Assembly: GCA_001899085.1 (NCBI GenBank)
Contig: MKVB01000002.1
Location: 638,602 to 702,601 of the forward strand
DNA from: Devosia sp. 66-14
GTDB taxonomy: Bacteria > Pseudomonadota > Alphaproteobacteria > Rhizobiales > Devosiaceae
Reading direction: 5' to 3'
DNA length: 64,000 nucleotides
Shown here: positions 8-13,511 of the stretch, in pieces
Layout: each line of letters opens with the position of its first letter
How positions within the stretch are numbered: the stretch's first letter is position 1
Translations under genes and position numbers: made by a program
Notes under the pieces: model-generated
Database searches by the model: none
Seen by the model: only the letters and a program-made list of their open reading frames with translations
What the model was told of the DNA's origin: nothing

Positions 8-313
8 ATGCACCAGCACTATTCCACCGATGTCGAAGGCGGCGCGCCGGTGCGGCGGCGTTATGCGATCCGCGGCCGGCTGGAGGTGGCGAGCTATCTC
101 GAGTTCGTCGCCGAGCGGGCGCGCTGGCTCGATATCCGCGGCTGGGTGAGCGCTGGTGGCGCTGATGTGACGCTGGTGGCGGCCGGGCCGGAGGCGCTGG
201 TCGGGGCGCTGGAGATGGCGTGCACGCTGGGGCCGCTCGAGGCGCTGGTCGAGACGATCGAAGCGGTGGACGAGGCGGGGCCGGTGGGGAATGGGTTTGA
301 GGTGCGGGGCTGA
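8..313 (+). CDS. Acylphosphatase-fold protein with altered active site
   Basis: About 101 residues with the layout of an acylphosphatase: a first strand (YAIRGRLEV), a helix (YLEFVAERARWLDI), the GWV turn, and a C-terminal GP..ALVETIE pattern. Acylphosphatases cleave carboxyl-phosphate bonds with an Arg in a GxVQGVxFR loop and an Asn after GWV. Aligned here, the Arg position reads Leu31 (ASYLEF) and the Asn position reads Ala (GWVSAG), so the usual catalytic pair seems lost. The frame is open to the left edge, so the true start may lie outside the window. It is followed by a palindromic repeat, with the GST-like gene facing it. Function unknown; the fold call rests on pattern only. Confidence 0.55.
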   Translation: MHQHYSTDVEGGAPVRRRYAIRGRLEVASYLEFVAERARWLDIRGWVSAGGADVTLVAAGPEALVGALEMACTLGPLEALVETIEAVDEAGPVGNGFEVRG

Positions 314-456: not shown

Positions 457-1080
457 CTAGAAATAATCCGGCACCCCGGGCATCCCCACAAAGCCCGGCA
501 GCTTGCGCACCTGGCGTTGCCACAGGTTGATCGCCGGATAATCCTCGTGGCCGATGCCGGCGTCGTGGCTCAGCGCGACGTAGGGGAAGGTCGCGATGTC
601 GGCGATGGTCGGGGTGGGGCCGACGAGCCACAGGCCGCCGGCCTGGGCGCGGTCGGCGAGGTGGTCGTCGAGGAGGCGGAGGGCGGTGCGGGCTTTGGCC
701 TGCAAGGCCACGAGGTCGCCGGGATAGTTGAGCATGGCGATCATCCGGGCGCCGGAGATGGCCATCAGCTCGCCGCCGGCAAAGCTCAGCCACAGCATCA
801 CCGGCCCGAAGCGGTCGTCGCGCGGCAGCCAGTTCCCCGAAGTGTCGTGTTTGTTGGCGAGATGGCAGAGGATAGCCTGGGCGTCGCGGAGGACGAGGCC
901 ATCGTCTTCGAGCACCGGCAACTGGCCAAGCGGGTTCAGCGCCAGGAATTCCGGCCGCTTGTGTTCGCGGCCGGGGAAGAAGTCGACGGCCTGGGTCTCG
1001 TGGGCGATGCCCAGCATGCCGAGCAGCAGGCGCACCTTGTAGCAGCTGCCCGAGAGCACATAGTCGTAGAGCTTAGGCAT
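457..1080 (-). CDS. Glutathione S-transferase family protein (NdmE-like context)
   Basis: A 207-residue protein with a thioredoxin-fold N-terminal domain (about 1-80: YDYVLSGSCYKVRLLLGMLG, then the cis-proline segment GQLPVLEDD) and an all-helical C-terminal domain. The usual glutathione-contacting ES pair before the third helix reads DAQAI. The start overlaps the stop of the upstream oxygenase subunit by 8 bases, making it the third gene of a leftward operon with two halves of a Rieske oxygenase. By analogy with NdmE of the caffeine N7-demethylase, a GST homologue needed to assemble the oxygenase complex, it may have a structural role here. That role is inference; the GST family call is firm. 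Confidence 0.88.
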   Translation of the reverse strand: MPKLYDYVLSGSCYKVRLLLGMLGIAHETQAVDFFPGREHKRPEFLALNPLGQLPVLEDDGLVLRDAQAILCHLANKHDTSGNWLPRDDRFGPVMLWLSFAGGELMAISGARMIAMLNYPGDLVALQAKARTALRLLDDHLADRAQAGGLWLVGPTPTIADIATFPYVALSHDAGIGHEDYPAINLWQRQVRKLPGFVGMPGVPDYF

Positions 1081-1951
1081 TGGGCAGGTCCGTGCTCTGC
1101 AGGTCAGTTCTTGGCTCGGTGCCGAAGCGGAGCTGCTTTTCCTTGAGCCAGCGGCGGTAGAGCACCGAGCTCAGGTCGGCGCGGGTCGGGGTTTCGCGGC
1201 CGGGCTGCAGCGGCAGCAGCGAGGGGCGCTGGTTCTCGAGCACGATCTTGTCCTGGACGAAGATCATCTGCTGGAAGGCGCTGAGTTCGGCGTCGGTGCT
1301 GGTCTCGTCGATCACCAGCATGAAGGCGTGCGCCACCGAGACCGCCTCATCGAGCGGCTGGACGAACAGCGCGATGACGTCCCAGCGGTCGGGCGCGGTG
1401 GGCGGGGTCTTGTAGAGCATGACGTTGAAGGGGCTGACCACGCGGTACATGTACTTGCTGATCTGGCCCTCATCGGAGGCGGCGGCGGCCTTGGGCTGGT
1501 AGAACTCGCATTTGGTGGCCCAGAGCTCATCGACATCGCGGCGCTGCTCGACCTCGTATTTCGCCACCTCCGGATGCGCCTCGGAGCCGAGAATATCGGT
1601 GTGGACATAGGGGAAGTGGGCGAGATCGAGAAAGTTCTCGACCAGCCGCAGGCCGGAAGCGCGGACGCGCACCGGGCCGCAATGGATCCAGCGCCGGTCG
1701 GGCTCCTGGCTTTCGGGCAGCGCGAACAGCGCATGTTCTGGGGTGCCGAAACTGGTCCACAGGTGCCCGTAATCGGTGCGGACGGGGAGGGTGCGGCCGG
1801 CGGCGCGGACCTCGACGCCATCGGACAGGCGACGAACCGTGAGGTCCTCCCCGAGCAGGCGCGATGGGGTCTCGGCGCCCACCGGGAAATCCCTGAGCGC
1901 GCCGAGCGTGTACCATTGGTCGAGCGCGGCCCGGTCGTCGGTGAGGCTCAT
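1073..1951 (-). CDS. Rieske-type oxygenase catalytic subunit lacking the Rieske ligands
   Basis: A 292-residue protein carrying the mononuclear iron site of Rieske oxygenases: N106, D109, H112 and H117 in NFLDLAHFPYVH, with a likely third ligand at D234 (VQDKIVLENQ), as in vanillate demethylase-type catalytic domains. No CxH...CxxH pair occurs in it. The first 80 residues still look like Rieske-domain edge strands (QWYTLGALRDFPVG, LLGEDLTVRR, YGHLWTSFG) with the cluster loops gone. The frame stays open to 2239, but those extra residues are Arg-rich shadow. The ATG at 1951 overlaps the Rieske gene stop (ATGA) and is the clear start. It should take electrons from the adjacent Rieske protein. 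Substrate unknown; an N- or O-demethylase is plausible. Confidence 0.85.
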   Translation of the reverse strand: MSLTDDRAALDQWYTLGALRDFPVGAETPSRLLGEDLTVRRLSDGVEVRAAGRTLPVRTDYGHLWTSFGTPEHALFALPESQEPDRRWIHCGPVRVRASGLRLVENFLDLAHFPYVHTDILGSEAHPEVAKYEVEQRRDVDELWATKCEFYQPKAAAASDEGQISKYMYRVVSPFNVMLYKTPPTAPDRWDVIALFVQPLDEAVSVAHAFMLVIDETSTDAELSAFQQMIFVQDKIVLENQRPSLLPLQPGRETPTRADLSSVLYRRWLKEKQLRFGTEPRTDLQSTDLPNA

Positions 1952-2556
1952 GCGGCGGCTCCCTGTTCGAGGTTCTGGCGCAGGGCACGCAGCTGTGCCG
2001 TGGCGGCGGCGATATCGGCGCCGGTGCCGGTCGCGTGCAGCATGGTCTTTGCGGCATGCACGCGGTGCCAGCCAAGCTGCAGTAGGCCGGCGGCGCCGGG
2101 CAGGGCGGCGATGGGGTGAGCAGTCGAACTGCCGAGGGCTGCGAGCACGCGCTCCGGCGCGGCTTCGATGGCGAGGCTGATCACCGGGGTCGCCTCGGGC
2201 AGAAGCGGCGCCGGGCTCGCACCGTCGGCGCTCATCCACACCATGCCGCCGGTCTCGGCCGCGGCATAGGCGTTGGCGCGGATGGTGGGCGGCACGGTCA
2301 GATCCGGGTGGGCCGGGATGCGCAGGCAGTTGGCGCCGGCGCCATATTGCCAGCCGTGGTAGAGGCAGTTCAGCGCGTTGGAACGCACGAAGCCGAGGCT
2401 CAGCCGCATGCCGCGATGCGGGCAGCGATCCTCCCAGACATGCGCCACGCCATCCTCGCCACGCCAGATCATCACCTCGCGCCCGTCGACGATCACCGCC
2501 CGGGTCACTCCATCAGGCACGTCGCGGCCGAGGGCAATCGGTATCCAGTCAGCCAT
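1948..2556 (-). CDS. Stand-alone Rieske [2Fe-2S] protein with extra C-terminal domain
   Basis: 202 residues. The N-terminal 110 residues are a Rieske domain with C45-x-H47 (CPHRG) and C64-x2-H67 (CLYHGW). The last 85 or so residues are Ala-rich and predicted helical, of no family I recognise. There is no reductase domain and no catalytic iron site, so it must pass electrons to the neighbouring subunit and receive them from a reductase encoded elsewhere. I chose the ATG at 2556, which has AAGGA upstream; a TTG at 2562 would add two residues. It is the first gene of the leftward Rieske/catalytic/GST operon and diverges from the BMP importer. Confidence 0.85.
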   Translation of the reverse strand: MADWIPIALGRDVPDGVTRAVIVDGREVMIWRGEDGVAHVWEDRCPHRGMRLSLGFVRSNALNCLYHGWQYGAGANCLRIPAHPDLTVPPTIRANAYAAAETGGMVWMSADGASPAPLLPEATPVISLAIEAAPERVLAALGSSTAHPIAALPGAAGLLQLGWHRVHAAKTMLHATGTGADIAAATAQLRALRQNLEQGAAA

Positions 2557-2601: not shown

Positions 2602-2843
2602 CGTGCTGTCGTGTGATCAAATAGTAGGCAGATATGAAAGGCGTGCGGACACATTAAGCATTCAATGGTCCGGCCGGGCAAGCGGGATTCTCTCGTCATT
2701 TCAGTCAAGGCGCTGGAATCGTTGATGGAATGGCGCCGGTGCGGCGCCGTTCCGGCTTGGCACATGGATTGCATTGATCTCCACGGATACCGGCGCCGGA
2801 CCCACAAGGCGGCGCCCAATGGTGCAATCCAGGGGAAGACGTC

Positions 2844-3947
2844 ATGACACTAACCGCTATCTCACGTCGCAGGTTGCTCAAGGTCGGTGCAGCCGGGCTC
2901 GCCGCATCGGCGCTGCCATTCGGGATCGCCCGGGCGCAAACCAATGTCGTGCTCGGCATCGTCTATGTCGGACCGAAGGACGATTTCGGCTGGAACCAGG
3001 CGCATGCCGTATCGGTAGAGTCGCTGAAGGCACTGCCCGGCATCACCGTGGTTGAAGAAGAGAATGTGCCCGAGACCGACGCCGTCTCCAAGTCCATGGA
3101 GTCGATGATCAACCTCGATGGCGCCAACCTGATCCTCGCCACCTCGTTCGGCTATTACAATCCGTTCGTGGTCGAGCTGGCCAAGAAGTATCCCGACGTC
3201 ACCTTCCGGCATGCGGCGCCCCTGTGGAACAAGGACAAGGACCCGGCCAATGCGGGCTCCTATTTCCCGTACCTGAACCAGGCGCATTACGTGAACGGCG
3301 TGGCGGCCGGGCTCTCCTCTGGCGGCAAGATCGGGTTCGTGGCGGCCAAGCCCATTCCGTCGGTGCTTTCCAATATCAACTCGGTGCTGCTCGGGGCGCG
3401 CTCAGTGAACCCCAACGCCACGGTGCAGGTGATCTTCACCGGCGAGTGGAGCCTGCCGGTGCGCGAGGCGGAAGCCACCAACGCGCTGGTCGATGCCGGC
3501 TGTGAAGTCATCACCTGCCATGTCGACAGCCCGAAGGTGGTGATCGAGACCGCCGAGGGGCGCGGGGTGAAGACCGCCGGCCACAATGCCAGCCAGGCGC
3601 CGCTGGCGCCCAAGGGCTTCATCACCGGCGCCGAATACAAGTGGGAGACGATCTACAAATCCTACGCCGACGACATCGCCGCCGGCAAAACCCCGCCCAA
3701 TTTCCTGGTCGGCGGCTACAATAACGACATGCTGCGCAACACGCCCTATGGCGCGGGCGCCACGCCCGAGGCGATCGCCGCAGCCGATGCCGCCATCGCG
3801 GCGCTGGTCGCCGGCGCCCCGATCTACAAGGGCACGCTCAAGGACAATGCCGGCAACGTCGTAGTCGACAAGGACTACGACAATTACGACCCGTATCTCG
3901 ACGGCATGAACTGGCTGCTCGAGGGCGTGCAGGGGTCGATTACCTAA
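2844..3947 (+). CDS. BMP-family ABC transporter substrate-binding protein
   Basis: A 367-residue periplasmic binding protein of the BMP/PnrA-Med family, which in other bacteria binds nucleosides, purines or related N-heterocycles. The N-terminus has a twin-arginine motif (SRRRLLK), a hydrophobic stretch and an ARA cleavage site near residue 31, so Tat export is likely. Mature protein: VVLGIVYVGPKDDFGWNQAH followed by alternating alpha/beta folds typical of the family. A good AGGGGAAG ribosome site precedes the ATG. It heads an operon with two BMP permeases, a dual ATPase and ureido amidohydrolases, so the ligand is probably biuret-, triuret- or ureide-like (inference from context). Confidence 0.92.
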   Translation: MTLTAISRRRLLKVGAAGLAASALPFGIARAQTNVVLGIVYVGPKDDFGWNQAHAVSVESLKALPGITVVEEENVPETDAVSKSMESMINLDGANLILATSFGYYNPFVVELAKKYPDVTFRHAAPLWNKDKDPANAGSYFPYLNQAHYVNGVAAGLSSGGKIGFVAAKPIPSVLSNINSVLLGARSVNPNATVQVIFTGEWSLPVREAEATNALVDAGCEVITCHVDSPKVVIETAEGRGVKTAGHNASQAPLAPKGFITGAEYKWETIYKSYADDIAAGKTPPNFLVGGYNNDMLRNTPYGAGATPEAIAAADAAIAALVAGAPIYKGTLKDNAGNVVVDKDYDNYDPYLDGMNWLLEGVQGSIT

Positions 3948-3969
3948 GCGGGCTCCAGGGCATGTCTGG

Positions 3970-4113
3970 AAAAAGGCCCCCTCACCCGGCGCTGCGCGCC
4001 GACCTCTCCCCCAAGGGAGAGGTGATGCATGGGCGCGATCGTGCCACGCGAACACCTCTCCCTGTGGGGGAGAGGTCGGGTTGCGTCAGCAACCCGGGTG
4101 AGGGGGCCTTTTT
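3970..4113 (+). repeat. Inverted repeat with T-tract between binding protein and permease genes
   Basis: Perfect 20-base outer arms at 3970-3989 (AAAAAGGCCCCC...) and 4094-4113 (...GGGGGCCTTTTT) enclose inner hairpins of the CTCTCCCC type. The GC-rich stem ending in five T looks like an intrinsic terminator or attenuator inside the operon. It could lower permease expression relative to the binding protein. Confidence 0.8.
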
Positions 4114-4134
4114 GGAAGCGTGGAGCGTGGGAAG

Positions 4135-5250
4135 ATGACCGCTGAAACCGCCGACAGTACCGCCATCCCGGCCAAGGCCGGGCCGAGCCTCGGCCTGCTC
4201 CGCCTCGCCGAAGCAGTGAGCATTCCCGTCGGCGCGCTGCTGGTTTCGGCGGTGCTGTTCGCGCTGTTCCTGCTCGCCATCGGCAAGGACCCGATCCAGT
4301 TTTACCAGTTGATCTGGACCGGCGGCTTCGGTTCGTCGTTCTCGATCCAGAATTCGCTGCAGCGCGCCGCGCCGCTGATCCTCACGGGGCTGGCCTTCGC
4401 CATTCCGGCGCGCATCGGGCTCACCATGATCGGCGGGGAAGGGGCGCTGGTGCTGGGCGGCTTCAGTGCCGCGGCCATCGCCATCCCGCTGGTCTCGAAC
4501 GCCGTGCCGGTGCCGCTGACGCTCTTCGTCATGGCGTTGACCGCGGTGGTGAGCGGCGGGTTGTGGGTGGGGTTCACCGGCTGGCTCAAATATGCGCGCG
4601 GGGTCAACGAGACCATCGCCTCGCTGCTGATGAGCTATATCGCCATCGCCATCATGAACTTTTTCGTCGAGGGGGCGCTGCGCGATCCGGCCTCGGCCAA
4701 CAAGCCCTCGACCATGCCGATCGGCGATGCCTACCGGGTCGGCGCCATTCCCGGCACCGAAGTGCACTGGGGCTTTGCAGCCGGCGTGGTGCTGGCGCTG
4801 CTGCTCTGGGTGCTGATGAGCCGCACCACGTTCGGCTTTGCGGCGCGGATGACCGGCGGCAACCTCAGGGCGGCGCGGGCGCAGGGCCTGCCGGTGGGCT
4901 GGCTGATGGTGGTGTGCTGCGCCATTGCCGGCGCCTGTGCCGGGCTCGCCGGTTTCTTCGAAGTGGCGGCGATCCATGGCCAGGCCAATGCCTCGCTGGT
5001 CGCCGGCTATGGCTTTACCGGCATTCTCGTCGCCTTCCTCGCGCGGCAGAACCCGCTGGCGGTGATCCCGGTGGCGATCCTGTTCGGGGCGCTGGCGGCG
5101 GCCGGCGGGGTGATCCAGCGGCGGATGGGCATGCCCGATGCGACGATCCTGGTGCTGCAGGGGATGATGTTCGTGGTGCTCCTGGTGTCGGAGACCTTCT
5201 ACGGGCGGCTGAAGCTGTTCCAGCCCAGGGCAACGGGGGAGCGGACCTGA
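4135..5250 (+). CDS. BMP-type ABC transporter permease 1
   Basis: About 371 residues, an integral membrane protein of the BPD_transp_2 type (YufP/RbsC-like). Hydrophobic segments run from residue 25 to the C-terminus (ALLVSAVLFALFLLAIG first). The family segment PLILTGLAFAIPARIGLTMI and a GGEGALVLGG turn are present. The ATG at 4135, with GGAG nine bases upstream, is preferred over a GTG five codons earlier. It forms the transmembrane channel with the next gene, whose ATG overlaps its stop by one base (TGATG). Confidence 0.9.
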   Translation: MTAETADSTAIPAKAGPSLGLLRLAEAVSIPVGALLVSAVLFALFLLAIGKDPIQFYQLIWTGGFGSSFSIQNSLQRAAPLILTGLAFAIPARIGLTMIGGEGALVLGGFSAAAIAIPLVSNAVPVPLTLFVMALTAVVSGGLWVGFTGWLKYARGVNETIASLLMSYIAIAIMNFFVEGALRDPASANKPSTMPIGDAYRVGAIPGTEVHWGFAAGVVLALLLWVLMSRTTFGFAARMTGGNLRAARAQGLPVGWLMVVCCAIAGACAGLAGFFEVAAIHGQANASLVAGYGFTGILVAFLARQNPLAVIPVAILFGALAAAGGVIQRRMGMPDATILVLQGMMFVVLLVSETFYGRLKLFQPRATGERT

Positions 5251-6167
5251 TGGACAACGCGCTGGTCACTGTGCTGATCGCCATGCTCGGCGGCGCCATA
5301 AGGGTGTCGACGCCGTTCATGTTCGTCGCCCTGGGCGAAACGCTCACCGAGAAATCGGGGCGCATCAATTTGGGGCTAGAGGGCAACCTGGTGCTCGGCG
5401 CCATGGTCGCCTACGCGGTGAGCTATCTCAGCGGCAATGCCTGGCTGGGGGTGCTCGCCGCCGGCGGCTCGGGGCTCTGCCTCGGGGCGCTGCACGGCTA
5501 TATCTGCAAGCTGCCGCGAGTGAACGACATCGCCGTCGGCATCGCCATGATGAGCTTCGGCACCGGCCTCGCCTTCTTTTTCGGCAAGCCGTTCATCCAG
5601 CCCTCGGCGCCGCGGCTCGACGCCATTCCCCTGGGGGATTGGACCGGTAATCCGGCGCTTGCCCAGGCGCTGCAGGTCAACCCGCTGTTCTTTGTCGGCA
5701 TTGCGCTGGCCGTCTTCATGTTCTGGGCGTTCAGGAACACCCGCTGGGGGCTGATCGTCCGAATGACCGGCGACAGTGCCGCCTCGGCCAAGGCGATGGG
5801 CGTATCGGTCGACCTGGTGCGCTTCCTCGCCACCGCGGCGGGCGGCTTCCTCGCCGGGATCGGCGGGGCGTTCCTGTCGCTCTACTACCCGGGCAGCTGG
5901 AACCAGGGGCTGAGTTCGGGGCAGGGGCTGATGGCCGTGGCGCTGGTGATCTTTGCGCGCTGGGACCCGATCAAGTGCATTTTCGCCGCGCTGCTGTTCG
6001 GCGCCGCCGGGGCGCTGGGGCCCTCGCTGCAATCGATCGGCATTTCGCAGGGCTACTACTTCTTCAACGCCGCCCCCTACATCCTGACGCTGATCATCAT
6101 GATCATTTCCGCCGGTTCGAAAGCCTCGGCGCGGGATGTGCCGGGCGAACTGTCGATCACCAAGTGA
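5250..6167 (+). CDS. BMP-type ABC transporter permease 2
   Basis: 305 residues, the partner permease (YufQ-like). The family hallmark [20 protein letters not shown] lies in the first 50 residues, followed by multiple membrane spans and a late [17 protein letters not shown] segment. The start is set by the TGATG junction with permease 1; an open frame continues upstream but is shadow of that gene. It is followed 11 bases later by the BiuH-like hydrolase. Confidence 0.9.
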
Positions 6168-6178
6168 GGCCGGAGACG

Positions 6179-6901
6179 ATGAGCAGTTCCATGGACGAAC
6201 GGATCGACGCGGCTGCCGTGCCCGGCGGCAAGACCATCGCCTCGACGCCTTATCCCTGGCCCTATGACGGCGACCTGAGGCCCGACAACACGGTGCTGGT
6301 GGTCATCGACATGCAGACCGATTTCTGCGGGCCGGGCGGCTATGTCGACTCGATGGGTTATGACATCTCTTTGACCCGGGCTCCCATTGAACCGCTGAAA
6401 AAGCTGATGGCCGCCTTTCGGGCCAAGGGCTATCCGATCATCCACACCCGCGAGGGCCACAAGCCGGACCTTTCCGACCTGCCGGCCAACAAGCGCTGGC
6501 GCTCGCAGCGGATCGGCGCCGGCATCGGCGACCAGGGGCCGCAGGGGCGCATCCTGGTGCGCGGCGAGCCGGGTTGGGAGATCATCCCCGAACTCAAGCC
6601 GGAGCCGGGTGAGGCGATCATCGACAAGCCGGGAAAGGGCTCGTTCGCCTCCACCGATCTCGAGCTGATCCTGCGGCTCAAGGGCATCCGCAACATCGTG
6701 CTCACGGGCATCACCACCGATGTCTGCGTGCATACGACGATGCGCGAGGCCAATGATCGCGGGTTTGAATGCGTGCTGCTCGAGGATTGCTGCGCCGCCA
6801 CCAAGTACGACAACCACCTCGCCGCCATCGACATGATCAAGATGCAGGGCGGGGTGTTCGGGGCGGTGTCCACCTCGACCGACCTGATGGCGGTGCTGTG
6901 A
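6179..6901 (+). CDS. biuH: Biuret amidohydrolase (isochorismatase-fold cysteine hydrolase)
   Basis: 240 residues. Biuret hydrolase converts biuret to allophanate and ammonia. Asp44 (VVIDMQTDF), Lys150 (IDKPGKGSF) and Cys183 ([11 protein letters not shown]) form the isochorismatase-fold triad. Their spacing, and that of Gln223 (KMQGGVFG), equals what I recall for Rhizobium leguminosarum BiuH (D36, K142, C175, Q215). Long segments such as [18 protein letters not shown] and [16 protein letters not shown] also match that protein from memory. It sits inside the importer operon with a GGAGA ribosome site, and AtzH- and AtzF-like genes lie downstream. Ureidoacrylate hydrolase is the main alternative, but the match to BiuH is better. 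Confidence 0.82.
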
Positions 6902-8415
6902 TGGCCGGTCGCGCGCCTTCGCTCGAAGCCATCGGCATGACCAAGGTGTTCGGGCCGCTGGTGGCGCTCGACGATGTGTCGATCAAGGTCGAAGCCGGCT
7001 CGTTCCATGCGCTGCTCGGCGAAAACGGCGCCGGCAAGTCGACCCTGGTCAAATGCATCATGGGGTTTTACAGCGCCGACAAAGGGCAGGTGCGGCTCGA
7101 CGGGCAGGAGGTCGCCATCCGCTCGCCCAGGGACGCGCGGGCCAACGGCATCGGCATGGTCTACCAGCAGTTCACCCTGGTGCCGTGCCTCACCGGGGCG
7201 GAGAACCTGGTGATCTCGCGTGCCGATGCGCCGGCGGTGATCGACTGGGCGAAAGAGAAGAAGCACCTCGACGCCTTCATGGCCGAGATGCCGTTCCGCG
7301 TGCCGATGAACACGCCGGTCTCGTCGCTGTCGGCGGGCGAGAAGCAGAAGCTCGAAATCCTGAAGCTGCTCTATCTCGACCAGCGCTTCATGATCCTCGA
7401 CGAGCCGACCTCGGTGCTGACGCCGGGCGAGGCCGACGAGATGCTGGGGCTCCTCGGCGGCATGGCGGACCGCAAGGAGATCACCGTGCTGATGATCTCG
7501 CACAAGTTCCGCGAGGTGAAGGCGTTCTGCGACCACTTCACCGTGCTGAGGCGCGGTCGCTTCACCGGGGCCGGCGACGCCAAGGCGGTGAGCGTCCCCG
7601 AGATGAGCGCCATGATGATCGGCGACACGGCGATCCGCGAACGCGCGGCGCGGAAGAAACACAATGAGGGGGCCGACCGGCTGGAGCTCGCGGGGCTGTT
7701 CGCCGAGGATAATGACGGCTTGCCGGCGATCAGATCGGTCAACCTCAAGGTCAAGGCCGGCGAGATCGTCGGCATTGCCGGGGTTTCGGGCAATGGGCAA
7801 TCGGCGCTGGTCGAGGCGCTCAGTGGGCAGCGCCCGCTATCGGATGGCGGCATCTACATCAATGGTGAGTTCTTCCGGCCCAAGCGCGGCTCGTTCGATC
7901 GCTACAAGGTGTTCGGGCTGCCCGAGGAGCCGCTGAAGAACGCCACCGTGCCGCGGATGAGCGTCGCCGAGAACCTGGCGTTCCGCTCCTTCGACAAGCC
8001 GCCGGTGGCAAAACTCGGCTGGTGGATGTCGCCCGGGCCGATGCGCGAGAAGGCCAGGGAATTGATCGCCAGGTACCGGGTGAAAACCCAGGGGCCGGAT
8101 GCACCGATCGAGACGCTTTCGGGCGGCAATGTGCAGCGGGCGGTGCTGGCGCGCGAACTCAGCGGCGATGTCGATGTGCTGATCGTCGCCAACCCCTGTT
8201 TCGGGCTGGATTTCGCCTCGGTGGCCGATATCCGCAGCCAGATCATGGAGCAGCGCAACCGCGGGGCGGCGGTGCTGCTGGTGAGCGAGGACCTCGACGA
8301 GATCCTCGAGCTGGCCGACCGGGTGGCGGTGATGAGTGGCGGCACGATCAACTACGTGGCGCGCATCGAGGACACCGACCGGAACACCATCGGACAACAC
8401 ATGGCGGGACACTGA
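6901..8415 (+). CDS. BMP-type ABC transporter ATP-binding protein (two nucleotide-binding domains)
   Basis: 504 residues with two ABC domains in one chain. The first has Walker A GENGAGKST, signature LSAGEKQK and Walker B FMILDEPTS. The second has a relaxed Walker A (VSGNGQSAL), signature LSGGNVQ and a Walker B without the catalytic Glu (VLIVANPCFGLD). One active and one degenerate site is normal for the RbsA/YufO class. The ATG overlaps the BiuH stop by one base (TGATG). It energises the two BMP permeases. The hydrolase gene sitting between permease and ATPase genes shows that uptake and hydrolysis are one unit. Confidence 0.92.
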   Translation: MAGRAPSLEAIGMTKVFGPLVALDDVSIKVEAGSFHALLGENGAGKSTLVKCIMGFYSADKGQVRLDGQEVAIRSPRDARANGIGMVYQQFTLVPCLTGAENLVISRADAPAVIDWAKEKKHLDAFMAEMPFRVPMNTPVSSLSAGEKQKLEILKLLYLDQRFMILDEPTSVLTPGEADEMLGLLGGMADRKEITVLMISHKFREVKAFCDHFTVLRRGRFTGAGDAKAVSVPEMSAMMIGDTAIRERAARKKHNEGADRLELAGLFAEDNDGLPAIRSVNLKVKAGEIVGIAGVSGNGQSALVEALSGQRPLSDGGIYINGEFFRPKRGSFDRYKVFGLPEEPLKNATVPRMSVAENLAFRSFDKPPVAKLGWWMSPGPMREKARELIARYRVKTQGPDAPIETLSGGNVQRAVLARELSGDVDVLIVANPCFGLDFASVADIRSQIMEQRNRGAAVLLVSEDLDEILELADRVAVMSGGTINYVARIEDTDRNTIGQHMAGH

Positions 8416-8416
8416 G

Positions 8417-8845
8417 ATGGACGCTGCGACCGCGACAGGGCAGACGAAACCTCATGCTTGGGGCAGAGGCTGGCGGTGGGCAGCGCCGGGTGAGGGGGTC
8501 CTCGATTGGGTCCATGGCAGGGCGAAGGGCCCCCTCACCAGACTTTTCGTGGGTGGCGACAGTCGTGATAGCTCGGTGCGGGAAGAGTACCCCCCACCCT
8601 GTCCCTCCCCCGCAAGGGGGGAGGAGACCAAAACACCGACGCCAGTGAAGGCGTCTCCCTCCCCCTTGCGGGGAGGGGACAGGGGTGGGGGTGCTCTGTG
8701 CGCACCGGCTCGTCAGCCGCGTTGCGACGACAGGCGATTGTCTGTCGAGGCCGGGAGGGGGGAGGCCACCGGCACCGGCCCCGCCGACTACCTCGTCCTC
8801 CACATCCCCTGCCGCGGCTCCTTCGTCATGGAGATCCGTCGATGA
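8417..8845 (+). CDS. Short frame reading through palindromic repeats; possible repeat-interrupted gene
   Basis: A 142-codon frame begins one base after the ATPase stop (TGAGATG) and ends in an ATGA overlap with the next hydrolase, so both junctions look like genuine operon spacing. The first 15 residues ([15 protein letters not shown]) and the last 25 (ending [17 protein letters not shown]) look protein-like. The roughly 100 residues between are Gly/Arg/Pro-rich translations of the palindromic repeats at 8487-8538 and 8585-8696. I recognise no family. It may be a small gene into which repeats inserted in frame, a decayed remnant, or chance. The overlapped ATG has its own GGAG site, so coupling is not required. 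Confidence 0.35.
8487..8538. repeat. Short inverted repeat, CGGGTGAGGGGG type
   Basis: CGGGTGAGGGGGTCC and GGGCCCCCTCACC flank a short spacer. The arms match the outer arms of the repeat at 3970-4113. It lies inside the short frame between the importer ATPase and the second hydrolase. Confidence 0.7.
8585..8696. repeat. 112-base inverted repeat, GAGTACCCCC family
   Basis: Begins GAGTACCCCCCACCC and ends GGGTGGGGGTGCTC. The centre AGACCAAAACACCGACGCC...GGCGTCTCC is shared, with few changes, with the element at 46291-46402. The two are copies of one mobile or amplified repeat family. This copy lies within an open frame and does not break it. Confidence 0.8.
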
Positions 8846-9507
8846 TCCCGGTTCCCTCGCGGCCCTATCCCTACCCACTCGACCCCGACCACACCGCGCT
8901 CGTCGTCATCGACATGCAGCGCGATTTCATCGAACGCGGCGGGTTTGGGGATTCGCTCGGCAATGATGTGGCCCGGCTCGAGGCGATCATTCCGACGACG
9001 GCGGCGCTGATCGCGCTGTTCCGGGACAAGGGCTGGCCGGTGATCCATACGCGCGAGGCGCATAAGGCCGATCTCAGCGATTGCCCGCCTTCGAAAATCC
9101 GCCGCGGCAACCCGAGCCTCAAGATCGGCGAGGCGGGCGCGATGGGGCGGCTGCTGGTGAGAGGCGAGCCGGGCAACCAGATCGTCGAGGCGCTGGCGCC
9201 GCTCGACGGCGAGCTGGTGATCGACAAGCCCGGCAAGGGGATGTTCTGGGCCACCGGCCTGCAGGAGCAGCTGGTGGAACTCCGTATCACCCATCTGGTG
9301 TTTGCGGGTGTCACCACGGAGGTCTGCGTCCAGACGTCGATGCGCGAGGCCAATGACCGCGGCTATGAGTGCCTGGTGATCGAGGACGCGACCGAGAGTT
9401 ACTTTCCGGAGTTCAAGGCGGCGACCCTTACGATGATCGCGGCGCAGGGCGGCATAGTCGGCTGGGTGACGCCGCTGGCGGCGCTCAAGGAAGCGGTCGC
9501 AGCATGA
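8842..9507 (+). CDS. Isochorismatase-family amidohydrolase, second paralogue (biuret/triuret hydrolase-like)
   Basis: 221 residues with the full triad: Asp24 (VVIDMQRDF), Lys129 ([10 protein letters not shown]) and Cys162 ([12 protein letters not shown]). Gln202 (AAQGGIVG) matches the BiuH Gln that contacts the ureido group. It is shorter than the first paralogue and differs in the substrate loop around residues 80-100 ([19 protein letters not shown] against the paralogue's [13 protein letters not shown]), so a different ureido substrate is likely; triuret, carbamoylated amine and ureidoacrylate are candidates. GGAG lies 8 bases before the ATG. The stop overlaps the AtzH-like start by four bases. 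Confidence 0.8.
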
Positions 9508-9890
9508 TGATCAACGATCCGGCAGTGCTGGCCGAGGTCACGGCGGTGTTCGAGCGCTATGAGGCGGCGCTGGTCGACAATGACGTGGCGGTGCTCGACG
9601 AGCTGTTTCTCGATAGCCCGCTGACCGTGCGCTACGGCATTGCCGAGAATCTCCATGGCAGCGAAGCGATCCGGGCATTCCGACTGCTCCGCCGTTCCAC
9701 CGGGGCCGACCGGCGGCTCGCCGAGACGGTGATCACCACCTATGGGCGGGACACCGCGATCGCCGCGACGCTGTTTTCGCATGACAGCGTCCCCGGCAGG
9801 GTTGGACGGCAGATGCAGACGTGGATACGGATGCCGGATGGCTGGCGCGTCGCAGCGGCGCATGTCAGCGTCATCGACGCGCAGGTCTGA
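9504..9890 (+). CDS. atzH: AtzH-like protein (DUF3225, SnoaL/NTF2 fold)
   Basis: 128 residues of the NTF2-like fold. The opening [10 protein letters not shown], the core [20 protein letters not shown] and [20 protein letters not shown], and the ending [13 protein letters not shown] fit the DUF3225/AtzH family. AtzH of Pseudomonas sp. ADP hydrolyses 1,3-dicarboxyurea in cyanurate breakdown, between AtzE and AtzF. Here it follows two isochorismatase-type hydrolases by an ATGA overlap, and an AtzF-like gene lies 740 bases on. No atzD, atzG or atzE is in the window, so it may serve a biuret or ureide branch rather than cyanurate. Confidence 0.75.
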
Positions 9891-9930
9891 CTGCGGCGCT
9901 TAAGAAAGCGCCAGGGGATTAGAGGGGACT

Positions 9931-10572
9931 ATGCTGAAACGCACCTCCGGCGAGGAGATTCGCCGCGTGCTGGCCAGCCGCATCATTGCCGGCGAGCTGG
10001 AACCCGGCACGCCGCTCGATGAGACGCAGCTGGCCAGCGAGTTCGCGGTATCGCGCACCCCGGTGCGCGATGCCCTGCGGCTGCTGGCGGCGAGCGGGCT
10101 GGTGGACCAGAAGCCGCATGCGCGCGCCCTGGTGGCAAAGCCCGCGCCCGACGAGCTCGCCGGCATGTTCGAGGTGATGGGCTATCTCGAGGCGCTGTGC
10201 GCCGGGCTCTGCGCCCAGATGATGACGGCAGCCGAGCGGGAAGCGCTCGATGCGCAGCACACGCAGATGGCCGGCATCGTCCGGGCCGGCGACACCACCG
10301 GCTATGCCGAGGCGAACGATACGTTCCACACCGCGATCTACGAGGGGGCGCATAACGCCTATCTCGGCGAGATCACCATCTCGACCCGGCAGCGGCTGCA
10401 GCCGTTCCGCCGAGCGCAGTTCGGCGCGCGCGGGCGCCTGCAGCAATCGCACGCCGAACACGGGCTGATCGTCGAGGCGATATTGCGCGGGGATCGCGGT
10501 GAGGCGGAAGCCGCGATGCGCAAGCACATCGCGATCGTCGGCGATGCGTATGAGCGGTTCAGTCGGGTTTAG
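9931..10572 (+). CDS. GntR-family transcriptional regulator (FCD type)
   Basis: 213 residues. An N-terminal winged helix (about 1-70: EIRRVLASRIIAGELEPGTP, then LASEFAVSRTPVRDALRLLAASGLV) is followed by an FCD ligand-binding domain with the expected acidic/His positions (NDTFHTAIYEGAHN, HAEHGLIVEAILRGD, RKHIAI). It lies 40 bases after the AtzH-like gene and faces atzF, so it probably senses a ureide intermediate and controls both sides. The TTGTATGCAA element at 2592 and the TGCA cluster upstream of atzF are candidate targets (inference). Confidence 0.88.
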   Translation: MLKRTSGEEIRRVLASRIIAGELEPGTPLDETQLASEFAVSRTPVRDALRLLAASGLVDQKPHARALVAKPAPDELAGMFEVMGYLEALCAGLCAQMMTAAEREALDAQHTQMAGIVRAGDTTGYAEANDTFHTAIYEGAHNAYLGEITISTRQRLQPFRRAQFGARGRLQQSHAEHGLIVEAILRGDRGEAEAAMRKHIAIVGDAYERFSRV

Positions 10573-10593
10573 GGAAACACCGGCGGTGCCGTA

Positions 10594-10620
10594 ATCCTCC
10601 CCCCCCACGCGGGGGAGGAT
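10594..10620. terminator. Bidirectional hairpin terminator
   Basis: ATCCTCCCCC...GGGGGAGGAT forms a tight GC-rich hairpin between the convergent ends of the GntR gene (10572) and atzF (10628). The same hairpin recurs at 15417-15443. Confidence 0.65.
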
Positions 10621-10627
10621 GAGCTGC

Positions 10628-12340
10628 TCATCCAGCGCTTGCCGCCAGAAAACCCCGCCAGCCGCCGAACTCCGAAATATCCCGCGCGCCCTTGACTGCC
10701 TCGGCTTCCACCAAAAACCCCTTGGCCGTGGTGCCGTCAGCCAGGCGCAGCGTGCCGATGCCCAGCGGCGCTGGGATCTTGGCGACGAACGTGCCGAAGC
10801 TCGCGGCGTCGAGCGACCAGAGTTCGGTGGCGACGCCCGCGCCGGTGCCGTCGGCGACGCGCAGCAGGCCGGGCTTGGGCGGGGTGGTGCCGGGGAGGGC
10901 GTAGAGGCGGTAGTCGGGCGTGGTGGTGGCCGTGCGCAGGAAATTGCCGCCGAGGCCGGTGAGCTCGCCATTGAGCGGCAGGCCGGAGAGATGGGCGCCG
11001 ACCACGGCGATCTCGATGCGGTCGGCCGGCGCGCGGATGGGGGCGCTGGTTGCTTCACCGGTCAGCGCCATGCCGATGCCCGCGAGATAGCCGTCGCTGC
11101 CGGCGCGGCCGATCAGCGTCAGGCTGCCGCGCAGGCCGTCGGCGCGGTCGGCCGTCGGCACCGACAGGGCAGCGAGATCGAGCAGGTTGACGAAGTTGGT
11201 GTAGCTGCCGAGGTTGGAGTTGAGAGTGATCGGGTCGGCCGCGAGCTCGGCCACGGTGTAGGCGCGCGGCACCGTCGGTACGGCGAGGCAATCGAGCCGG
11301 GCGAGGAGCGGCGCTACGGCGCGCTTCAGATCCATCAGCTTGTAGGTCGCCTCGAAGACCGAGACCGCGGTGAGGCCGCGGGCGCCTTCGATGATCTTGC
11401 GGGTCACCGGGTGGAAGGAACTCGGGCTCGCCTCGAGCAGCGCTCTGGTGGCGGCATAGCGCTCGGCCACCCACGGGCCTTCGTAGAGCAGCCGGGCCAC
11501 GGCGTGCAGCGGTTCGAAATCCACCTCGACGATCTGGGCGCCGAGCGCCGCGAGGCGTTCGAGGTCGGCGGCGTAGGAGGCCTCGGCCGCTGCGTCGCCG
11601 AAGAATTTGCGCTGCGCCGGGTGCGGTACACCGACCCGCAGGCTTGGCGGCGCGGTGGAAAGACTCGGCGCTGGCAGCGGGCGCGACCAGGCGTCGGCGG
11701 CATCATAGGCGGCGGCGACCGTGGTGACGCGGAAGGCGGTGGCGACGTCGCGGGCGAAGACCGAGATGGTGTCGAGGGTGCGGCAGGCCGGCACCATGCC
11801 GCTGGCCGAGAACAGCCCGAGGCTCGGCTTCAACCCGACGATGCCGTTCATGCCGGCCGGGATGCGGCCCGAGCCGGCGGTGTCGGTACCGAGCGCGAAA
11901 TGGACGATGCCGGCGGCGACCGCCACGGCCGAGCCCGAGCTCGAGCCACCCGGCACCAGGTCGGCGCGCTGGACATTGCGCGGCACGCCATAGGGCGAGC
12001 GCACGCCGACGAGGCCGGTGGCGAACTGATCGAGATTGGTCTTGCCCAGCACAATCGCTCCCGCCGCCTCGAGCCGTGCCACGACGAAGGCGGAGCCGGC
12101 AGGGGTATAGGCAAAGTCGGGGCAGGCGGCGGTGGTGGGGAGGCCGGTCGCGTCGATATTGTCCTTCACCGCAAAGATCAGGCCGTAGAGCGGCTTGCCT
12201 GAGGGGCCGGCGGCCTCGAGCGCGGCGGCTTCGGCCAGCAGCGCGGCTTCAGGCTTGAGGCTAATGAAGGTCGCCGGGTCGTCATAGGCGGCGAGGGCGG
12301 CAAGGGCCTGGTGCACGGCGGTAACGGGAGAAATCTGCAA
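10628..12340 (-). CDS. atzF: Allophanate hydrolase
   Basis: 570 residues. Converts allophanate to ammonia and CO2, the last step of biuret, cyanurate and urea-carboxylase pathways. Residues 1-430 are an amidase-signature domain with Lys59 (FAVKDNID), the GGSSSGS cis-serine loop (131-137) and nucleophile Ser157 (TDTAGSGRIPAG). Residues 450-570 are the C-terminal AtzF domain (VVGAHLSGLPLNGEL...YRLYALPG). The start is a TTG with GAGGGG upstream; a GTG nine codons inside is the alternative. It is transcribed toward the GntR gene. A repeat cluster separates it from the lactonase gene upstream, so it is probably its own transcription unit under the TGCA-rich region. Confidence 0.92.
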   Translation of the reverse strand: MQISPVTAVHQALAALAAYDDPATFISLKPEAALLAEAAALEAAGPSGKPLYGLIFAVKDNIDATGLPTTAACPDFAYTPAGSAFVVARLEAAGAIVLGKTNLDQFATGLVGVRSPYGVPRNVQRADLVPGGSSSGSAVAVAAGIVHFALGTDTAGSGRIPAGMNGIVGLKPSLGLFSASGMVPACRTLDTISVFARDVATAFRVTTVAAAYDAADAWSRPLPAPSLSTAPPSLRVGVPHPAQRKFFGDAAAEASYAADLERLAALGAQIVEVDFEPLHAVARLLYEGPWVAERYAATRALLEASPSSFHPVTRKIIEGARGLTAVSVFEATYKLMDLKRAVAPLLARLDCLAVPTVPRAYTVAELAADPITLNSNLGSYTNFVNLLDLAALSVPTADRADGLRGSLTLIGRAGSDGYLAGIGMALTGEATSAPIRAPADRIEIAVVGAHLSGLPLNGELTGLGGNFLRTATTTPDYRLYALPGTTPPKPGLLRVADGTGAGVATELWSLDAASFGTFVAKIPAPLGIGTLRLADGTTAKGFLVEAEAVKGARDISEFGGWRGFLAASAG

Positions 12341-12371
12341 GGCGCGGCCCCTCGATGATGGTCGAGCCGAT

Positions 12372-12472
12372 TATGCACAGACTCGCGGAACGGCATATGG
12401 AGATGTGTGCATTGAGGGATGATATGCAGAAAAAATGTGCAGATGTGGTCTGGGTGCACGAAGTGATGCACG
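12372..12472. promoter_or_regulatory. Cluster of six TGCA-core elements upstream of atzF
   Basis: TATGCACAG (12372), TGTGTGCATTG (12404), TATGCAGA (12423), ATGTGCAG (12435), GGTGCACG (12453) and GATGCACG (12465) occur within 101 bases. The spacing between TGCA cores is 34, 17, 13, 17 and 12 bases. This stretch is AT-richer than its surroundings. It looks like a multi-site regulator binding region controlling atzF (inference). Confidence 0.4.
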
Positions 12473-12517
12473 TGGGTGGAGCGGCTGTTGGAGATGGCCA
12501 CCGGCGGTGCGGCGCCG

Positions 12518-12618
12518 CCTCCCTCCCCCTTGAGGGGAGGGATTGAGGGAGGGGGTGGTGCAGTGATCACCGATGGACCCCCCCACCCCCAACCCCTCCC
12601 CTCAAGGGGGAGGGGAGC
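12518..12618. repeat. Inverted repeat, CTCCCCTCAAGGGGGAG family
   Basis: CCTCCCTCCCCCTTGAGG and its complement at CCCCTCAAGGGGGAGGGG flank a centre containing GTGATCACCGATGGAC. The same arms and centre, inverted, make up 51082-51182, so the two are copies of one family. It separates atzF from the lactonase operon. Confidence 0.8.
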
Positions 12619-12629
12619 AGAAAGAGTGC

Positions 12630-13511
12630 TCAGTCCGCGAACCGCGTCACCGGCACACCACGTGTCCCACTCGGAAGGCTCACCATCGCCCCACAAAGCG
12701 GCCATTTCGCCAGGTCCTCCGCCGACACCCCGGCGCTGAGGCTCGGGACATAGAGCGTCGTCAGATCCGGGCCGCCGAAGCAGGGCATGGTGGGGCGGAA
12801 GTTCGGCAGCTCGACCCATTTCAGCAGCTTGCCGTCAGGCGAGAAGCAGTTGAGGCGGCTGGCCGAGGCGCCGCCTGACCAGTAATTGCCATCGACGTCG
12901 CAGGCGCCGCCATCGGGGCGGCCGGTCAGTTCGTCGAGTTCGAGCCAGCGGCGGCGGTTGCTGGCGGCGCCGGTCGACGGATCGAAATCGTAGATATCGA
13001 CCCAGATGCCGCGCGAGTCCGAGTGATACATGCGGGTGCCCGCGCCATCCCAGGCAAGGCCGTTGGAAATGCGAAAGCCCTCGGTGACGGTGCCGACGCG
13101 GCCATCGGGCGCGACGCGGTAGAGCACGCCGGCGGGGTTGGCTTCGCCGCTCGCATCCATCGAGCCGACCCAGAAGGCGCCATCGGGGCCGACCTTGCCA
13201 TCGTTGAGCCGCATCGCCGGCTTGGCGTGGGTGACGGCGGCGAGCGGCTGCCGGCTGCCATCGCGCGGGTCGAACAGGATCACCGTGCTTTTGAGCGCGA
13301 CCACCAGTCTGCCGGACCGGCAAAGCCCCAGTGCACCCACCGGTTCGCCGAACTCCCAACGCTGCCGCGTGCCGGTGGCCGGGTCGATGCGATGGATGGT
13401 GCCGGGGGTGATATCGACCCAGTAGAGCAGACCGGTGCGCCCATCCCAGACCGGGCTCTCGCCGATATCGCAGCGGTCGGCGGCGACAGTGGTGATCTGA
13501 TGGGCGGTCAC
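12630..13511 (-). CDS. SMP-30/gluconolactonase-family lactonase
   Basis: 293 residues, a six-bladed propeller of the SGL family. Metal-site segments are visible: Glu in CDIGESPVWD, Asn in RISNGLAWDG and Asp in GGACDVDGNYW. Such enzymes open sugar lactones. Beside uronate dehydrogenase and 5-dehydro-4-deoxyglucarate dehydratase it most likely hydrolyses the aldarolactone made by uronate oxidation. The start is GTG in a GTGA overlap with the GntR gene stop; the frame stays open through the whole GntR gene, but that part is shadow. Confidence 0.85.
   Translation of the reverse strand: MTAHQITTVAADRCDIGESPVWDGRTGLLYWVDITPGTIHRIDPATGTRQRWEFGEPVGALGLCRSGRLVVALKSTVILFDPRDGSRQPLAAVTHAKPAMRLNDGKVGPDGAFWVGSMDASGEANPAGVLYRVAPDGRVGTVTEGFRISNGLAWDGAGTRMYHSDSRGIWVDIYDFDPSTGAASNRRRWLELDELTGRPDGGACDVDGNYWSGGASASRLNCFSPDGKLLKWVELPNFRPTMPCFGGPDLTTLYVPSLSAGVSAEDLAKWPLCGAMVSLPSGTRGVPVTRFAD

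Follow-up and report, generated by a model that had tools for sequence, protein, structure and literature searches.

Organization of the locus

The stretch of DNA analysed here, hereafter the window, covers 64,000 nucleotides from Devosia sp. 66-14, a member of a genus of soil bacteria. The following genes and sequence elements of the window are relevant to this work.

8–313, plus strand: small acylphosphatase-like protein of 101 aa, the fourth conserved component, whose gene converges with that for the GST; PF00708, 25.5 bits
457–1080, minus strand: GST-family protein, NdmE-like (207 aa); Pfam GST_N and GST_C
1073–1951, minus strand: OXY, NdmC-like catalytic subunit (292 aa) with a non-heme iron site and an apparent N-terminal remnant of a Rieske domain; Pfam VanA_C
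1948–2556, minus strand: RSK, stand-alone Rieske protein (202 aa) with an apparent C-terminal remnant of a catalytic domain; Pfam Rieske
2591–2601, strand not applicable: ATTGTATGCAA element upstream of RSK, kept in Devosia loci
2758–2773, plus strand: sigma-54-type promoter sequence TGGCAC-N5-TTGCA, ahead of the BMP operon
2844–3947, plus strand: BMP-family substrate-binding protein
4120–5250, plus strand: ABC permease 1
5250–6167, plus strand: ABC permease 2, start inferred; open frame, matched as PERM2 in relatives
6179–6901, plus strand: biuret amidohydrolase BiuH; NF050097, 408.3 bits, cut-off 370
6901–8415, plus strand: ABC ATP-binding protein, start inferred
8842–9507, plus strand: triuret hydrolase, TrtA-like; 329.5 bits to 6xix
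9504–9890, plus strand: AtzH-like protein, start inferred; PF11533, 181.1 bits
9931–10572, plus strand: GntR/FCD regulator
10628–12340, minus strand: allophanate hydrolase; TIGR02713, 750.2 bits, cut-off 511

In the open reading frames of the window RSK and OXY overlap by 4 bases and OXY and the GST gene by 8 bases, all on the minus strand, just as an earlier note on this DNA had described. That note took the three genes for a three-part oxygenase and overlooked the acylphosphatase-like gene; the conserved set comprises four genes. The genes for the BMP importer, BiuH, the TrtA-like and AtzH-like proteins and the GntR regulator run divergently from RSK, and the allophanate hydrolase gene faces them. 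GC-rich palindromic repeats are visible by eye in the intergenic gaps at 330–450 and 3965–4115. The home genome contains a single OXY match, and the nearest named relative among the best 80 of 348 is the locus of Devosia sp. Root413D1, with an OXY of 95% identity.

Cluster and catalytic iron on separate chains

For comparison we used the best 80 of 348 OXY relatives, confirmed on genome contigs, which form a non-random sample; alignment A1 holds RSK from 69 of 78 loci and alignment A2 holds OXY from 71 of 80 loci, each with the window added. RSK matches the Pfam Rieske domain alone (72.7 bits) and OXY matches VanA_C (70.6 bits) without a Rieske domain. The Rieske ligands C45, H47, C64 and H67 are invariant in 79 of 79 RSK sequences, and the iron-site residues N106, D109, H112, H117 and D234 in 81 of 81 OXY sequences, the window being counted in both. 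The earlier description of a stand-alone Rieske protein and a catalytic subunit lacking the cluster therefore agrees with both the domains and the ligands, and by Pfam and alignment OXY has what an NdmC-type catalytic subunit should have, namely the iron motif in the absence of Rieske ligands. RSK and the GST gene accompany OXY in 78 of the 80 loci, the exceptions (L039 and L058) being cases where OXY lies near a contig end, and such constancy shows that the grouping is not due to chance; this is also the outcome of the survey for the three-gene order that the earlier note had proposed. Outside the 80 loci, neither a Rieske nor a GST gene is annotated within 12 kb of a plasmid-borne OXY of Roseicitreum (59% identity).

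We are highly confident that this is an oxygenase split over two chains. As neither OXY nor RSK has both halves of a normal oxygenase, the genes might instead be the decaying remnants of an ordinary enzyme; with every ligand identical throughout both sets of sequences, and with a gene set that stays together, we find this extremely unlikely.

The predicted structures point to how the split may have arisen. AlphaFold2 models of RSK and OXY (mean pLDDT 93.3 and 84.6) were compared with solved structures by Foldseek. In the 24 best rows OXY aligns with whole GxtA and SxtT chains (TM 0.75–0.83 by query, 0.71–0.75 by target), and because it fits whole chains its N-terminal strands would occupy the place of the Rieske domain, with the cluster loops lost. 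RSK also aligns with whole chains in its 24 best rows (TM by query 0.65–0.75, 258–282 columns, rmsd 7.0–8.7 Å), a fit that in the predicted model exceeds what the Rieske part alone would give, and its C-terminus is modelled as an ordered unit of strand, helix, three strands and helix. In an hhalign comparison RSK residues 2–43 align to OXY residues 11–51 (E 1.8e-4, probability 48), and by profile the RSK C-terminus gives a weak match to OXY (E 0.004, probability 8), which pairs RSK H174, a His in 78 of 79 sequences, with the well-conserved OXY H208. The RSK C-terminus has the look of a catalytic domain in decay, and our reading is that OXY and RSK are complementary remnants, left when a whole oxygenase was duplicated and opposite halves were then lost from the two copies.

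Relationship to the NdmCDE demethylase

NdmC, NdmD and NdmE of Pseudomonas putida CBB5 constitute a 7-methylxanthine N7-demethylase, in which, according to a review, the catalytic subunit has no Rieske cluster, the Rieske domain is provided by another protein and a GST homologue is required (PMC4408171). The review also lists 18 more organisms, among them several Sinorhizobium and Mesorhizobium, that have ndmCDE homologues with no known function. As a stand-in for CBB5 we used a cluster on a Klebsiella plasmid, where the gene for an NdmC-like protein lies close to those for an NdmB-type protein (623 bits to the solved NdmB), a GST and a protein of 585 residues that combines Rieske and reductase parts. 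Identity to this cluster is 48% for OXY, 32% for RSK (over 139 residues) and 45% for the GST-like protein. In profile comparison RSK aligns with the N-terminus of nine NdmD-like proteins (216 columns, E 7e-44, probability 100), and the match persists when the C-terminal part is taken alone (E 8.5e-8, probability 94); the C-terminal domain that the earlier note called novel is hence common to NdmD-like proteins. The OXY-RSK-GST set is related to the bacterial caffeine-demethylating enzyme.

The likeness to NdmC/D/E proposed in the earlier note accordingly holds for the homology of the three proteins and stops at the reductase. A GST homologue, as NdmCDE requires, is found in 78 of the 80 loci and resembles the NdmE-like protein, but RSK stops after 202 residues and carries no fused reductase, and for this reason we do not class the set as NdmCDE; the four-gene set presumably works like it. 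Since the GST-like protein is both homologous to NdmE-like proteins and co-conserved, and OXY is no pseudogene, neither of the objections that the earlier note had raised against its own reading (an unrelated GST, not co-conserved; a catalytic subunit that is a truncated pseudogene) applies.

The fused form also occurs in the same family. OXY is found at E 1e-40 or better in 70 of 136 Devosiaceae genomes, nine of which have the window type (76–100% identity) and 61 a form of about 44–52%. Read with short flanks, 18 of 21 of the distant Devosiaceae loci have an NdmD-type reductase, and when distant loci were read again with long flanks, OXY, a Rieske-reductase protein and a GST were present in 6 of 6. 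In a tree of 72 of the 113 rows, thinned by locus number and with long-branch warnings, one of which pairs the Komagataeibacter row Kn_hyp with the Klebsiella row, 43 split rows are united (support 88/88) and the fused rows form two groups; Kn_hyp, which is split too, is placed outside the split group on a very long branch.

A cluster that speaks for the function proposed below is found on plasmid pKNA08 of Komagataeibacter nataicola from a kombucha tea culture (L090), where positions 6935–13486 encode an NdmB-like protein (434 bits), two split sets and a stand-alone reductase. This cluster may be an island for the demethylation of methylxanthines in a tea ferment. The Rieske protein of its first set (8814–9347) has lost the second cluster Cys, and the OXY partner retains the iron motif.

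Two further proteins with degenerate active-site motifs

In GST proteins Ser at position 67 is presumably the usual holder of the glutamate of glutathione. Among 84 sequences of the GST-like protein, this position is Ser in 7, Thr in 39 and Ala in 28, the window having Ala, and position 10 is Asp in 71. The conserved glutathione-site residues of an active glutathione S-transferase are therefore not kept in the set, and the Klebsiella NdmE-like protein retains the usual residues at this site. A structural role is likely for the GST-like protein; such a role has been ascribed to NdmE (PMC4408171).

Relatives of the acylphosphatase-like gene occur in 77 of the 80 loci, directly upstream of RSK on the same strand in 71 and convergent with the GST gene in 6, which belong to the Devosia group. 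The three misses (L007, L039 and L058) are all contig-end cases, L007 being a contig of 3,675 bases that ends 144 bases past the GST gene. On plasmids the gene is present in 33 records, and in 17 of the 17 that could be matched to OXY listings it lies within 7 kb of OXY. Eight of the nine Devosiaceae genomes with a window-type OXY encode it (at least 64% identity), the ninth, G094, having the short contig. Among the 61 other OXY-positive Devosiaceae a match was seen only in G097 (32%, on a different contig), and four further weak matches (32–34%) sit in Devosiaceae genomes without an OXY match. No match was found in 31 fused-type stretches, 9 of them long-flanked and OXY-bearing; as the flanks of loci L106–L126 are about 1.5 kb, absence there is weak by itself, and whole genomes of the family were searched for the gene as well.

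We take the catalytic Arg and Asn of acylphosphatases to be at positions 31 and 48. The Arg is present in 5 of 78 acylphosphatase-like proteins, and at position 48, where the alignment is unsure, Asn is outside the six commonest residues; the catalytic pair of an active acylphosphatase is thus not kept in the set. A better acylphosphatase (87 bits) is encoded elsewhere in the home genome. Among the matches listed in the open-access literature there is no description of the four-gene set, and as far as this literature shows, what is new is the fourth gene together with the complementary decay.

Electron supply

No NdmD-type reductase scored over 70 bits in the available flanks of the 80 loci, and the best match in the home genome reaches 28.6 bits only, which bears out the remark in the earlier note that a reductase is absent. 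The home genome has five Fer2 matches and one NAD_binding_1 match, the latter in the 263-residue frame of the 28.6-bit reductase match, and no tie between these Fer2 proteins and the one reductase, at 171303–171950 of contig C3, on one side and the oxygenase set on the other was found. As there is no dedicated reductase, the electron donors would probably be a general, housekeeping ferredoxin and ferredoxin reductase.

The adjacent triuret operon

The TrtA-like protein scores 324.9 bits to the TrtA structures 6xj4/6xje versus 204.5 bits to biuret hydrolase, and has 6 of 7 TrtA-typical residues, position 134 being Met. Genes for the TrtA-like protein, BiuH and allophanate hydrolase are clustered here, as they should be for a triuret pathway, and the neighbouring BMP importer belongs to this triuret/biuret operon. 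The sequence at 2758–2773 matches what we take to be the sigma-54 promoter consensus; nine distinct Devosia loci retain it, as does the BMP-biuH cluster of L013, and its position ahead of the BMP gene fits nitrogen control. Autoregulation by GntR through the element at 2591 was considered and dropped, as the window holds no second copy at one mismatch. The terms oxygenase, glutathione and BMP are all absent from the main text of the paper on the triuret pathway (PMC7948467).

In nine Devosiaceae genomes the oxygenase set adjoins the BMP gene. Within the genus of the window the 12 OXY genomes (9 split, 3 fused) are the 12 BiuH genomes, and 7 others have neither; TrtA itself is found in 9 of the 12. 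Elsewhere in the family OXY is found in 12 of 17 BiuH genomes, and a further 46 genomes carry OXY but not BiuH, so that the tie between OXY and BiuH is local; it may reflect shared ancestry. A Rhizobium locus (L013, 16777–20800) contains a BMP-permease-permease-biuH cluster with its own sigma-54-type site in the same 20 kb as a purine-type oxygenase set. In G097 (contig C19; L146 and L147) a triuret operon headed by an amidohydrolase gene lies about 15 kb from a fused NdmC-D-E set, which is followed by a second allophanate-hydrolase match.

The earlier note had the oxygenase act on an N-heterocycle carried by the BMP importer. An N-heterocycle fits the deaminase neighbourhoods seen elsewhere (see below), but the importer belongs to the triuret/biuret operon. 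Because the BMP-permease-biuH cluster stands apart from the set in L013 and BiuH genomes without OXY exist, we keep the importer as a possible partner of the oxygenase only. Adjoining the window in the home genome (L091, 11651–17808) are a second BMP-type importer, a LacI-type regulator and, by eye, a protein resembling ADP-ribosylglycohydrolase; this second importer was rejected as a partner, as it was not seen around L010.

This arrangement invites the idea that in Devosia the complex dealkylates N-alkylated biuret or triuret brought in by the BMP system, thereby enabling TrtA and BiuH. The adjoining position in the nine genomes, the coincidence of OXY and BiuH within the genus and the cluster in L013, at most 20 kb from the set, are all consistent with it. 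On the other hand, TrtA itself is seen in no more than nine of the 12 genomes, three of the 12 have the fused form, which lies apart from the operon in the one that was read (G097), BiuH occurs without OXY elsewhere in the family (G104, G106, G107 and G108) and shared ancestry explains much of the synteny. Furthermore, we know of no N-alkylated triurets as natural substrates, and we consider this idea rather improbable.

A bolder proposal starts from the purine side: a compound such as urate or methylurate would be oxidised to triuret, for degradation in turn by TrtA, BiuH and allophanate hydrolase. The kin of the complex act on purines (PMC4408171), the adjoining pathway begins at triuret, and the TrtA paper describes the natural source of triuret as unknown, naming oxidative urate metabolism as a possible one (PMC7948467). 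A Rieske reaction of such a kind is without precedent, however, and both triuret operons without OXY and OXY without triuret operons occur, which makes this proposal very unlikely. Equally far-fetched is its stronger form, a class of four polypeptides with a cluster, a catalytic iron, two pseudo-enzyme subunits and no dedicated reductase that turns a purine-type compound oxidatively into triuret in Devosia; if true, triuret would be made enzymatically, in a route coupled to TrtA, BiuH and allophanate hydrolase.

Deaminase neighbourhoods in relatives

Near the set, adenine-deaminase-like genes are found in 39, guanine deaminase genes in 43 and 8-oxoguanine-deaminase-like genes in 20 of the 80 loci; at the thresholds used, 51 loci have at least one purine-type deaminase and 29 have none. 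A Rhizobium-type BMP match is present in 49 of the 80, one of them a Devosia locus. In a Rhizobium subgroup of the L030 type the set stands, by eye, beside a D-2-hydroxyacid dehydrogenase-like gene with neither importer nor deaminases, and the cluster of this dehydrogenase-like gene spans 16 loci; the ORF clusters of neighbours include shadow frames and serve as leads only. A cytokinin-type pathway was also considered, for which nothing was found in the open-access literature.

The adenine- and guanine-deaminase-like enzymes would yield hypoxanthine and xanthine, and annotated HpxD proteins are distant OXY matches (26–29%), so the complex might hydroxylate a purine ring carbon in the manner of HpxD instead of removing an N-alkyl group. 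Yet OXY is far nearer to NdmC-like proteins (44–51%) than to HpxD, and genes of the xanthine dehydrogenase and urate-oxidase types are apparently present elsewhere in the home genome (L144, by eye). We therefore regard ring hydroxylation as unlikely.

Proposed function

We lean, by a little, towards the locus encoding a four-part Rieske non-heme iron oxygenase of the NdmC/D/E type that probably N-dealkylates a purine- or ureide-type N-heterocycle; taken by itself, the assignment of the reaction as N-dealkylation of a purine- or ureide-type compound has in our view an even chance. The established basis consists of homology, folds, conserved ligands and the co-conservation of the four genes. Points that count against it are the 29 loci without a deaminase at the thresholds used, the high rmsd of the RSK fit and the weak profile match of the RSK C-terminus to OXY, the Roseicitreum OXY without annotated partners and the Komagataeibacter RSK with its lost cluster Cys. 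In the mechanism that we envisage, the [2Fe-2S] cluster would sit on RSK and the mononuclear iron on OXY, and the two proteins would assemble like the subunits of the usual trimer. Electrons would pass from general carriers to RSK and from there across D109 to the iron of OXY, and the GST-like and acylphosphatase-like proteins, with their degenerate active-site motifs, would probably serve as structural subunits or assembly factors. Most likely an N-methyl group or another N-alkyl group would be cleaved off oxidatively, leaving the bare compound and releasing an aldehyde, after which deaminases or ureide hydrolases may release the nitrogen of the dealkylated compound. In Devosia the most likely setting would be nitrogen scavenging beside the triuret pathway.

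The arrangement suggests how a one-chain Rieske oxygenase splits into complementary halves. It also brings to light a fourth partner, overlooked before, that accompanies the split form, so that the roles of both the GST and the acylphosphatase-like protein become directly testable, and it gives a pointer to nitrogen-scavenging operons for modified purines and triuret in many Alphaproteobacteria.

Comparison with known systems

The nearest solved structures for both OXY and RSK are the Rieske oxygenases SxtT and GxtA (SxtDIOX), which hold cluster and iron on one chain, whereas here they are on separate chains. The adjacent genes recall the TrtA-BiuH-AtzF triuret pathway, as outlined in PMC7948467; here biuH, trtA-like and atzH-like genes form a divergent operon, followed by the allophanate hydrolase gene. 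With NdmC/D/E of CBB5 the set shares homologous parts, a catalytic subunit without a Rieske cluster and a GST homologue. NdmD is a Rieske domain fused to a flavin reductase, whereas the Rieske part here is a free protein, and in contrast to CBB5 the locus in the window has an additional acylphosphatase-like gene, neither NdmA nor NdmB, and no dedicated reductase. Also close are the fused NdmC-NdmD-GST operons of other Devosiaceae (L127, L128, L129, L133, L134 and L147), which have a homologous OXY, Rieske domain and GST, but in which the reductase is fused to the Rieske part and the acylphosphatase-like neighbour is absent.
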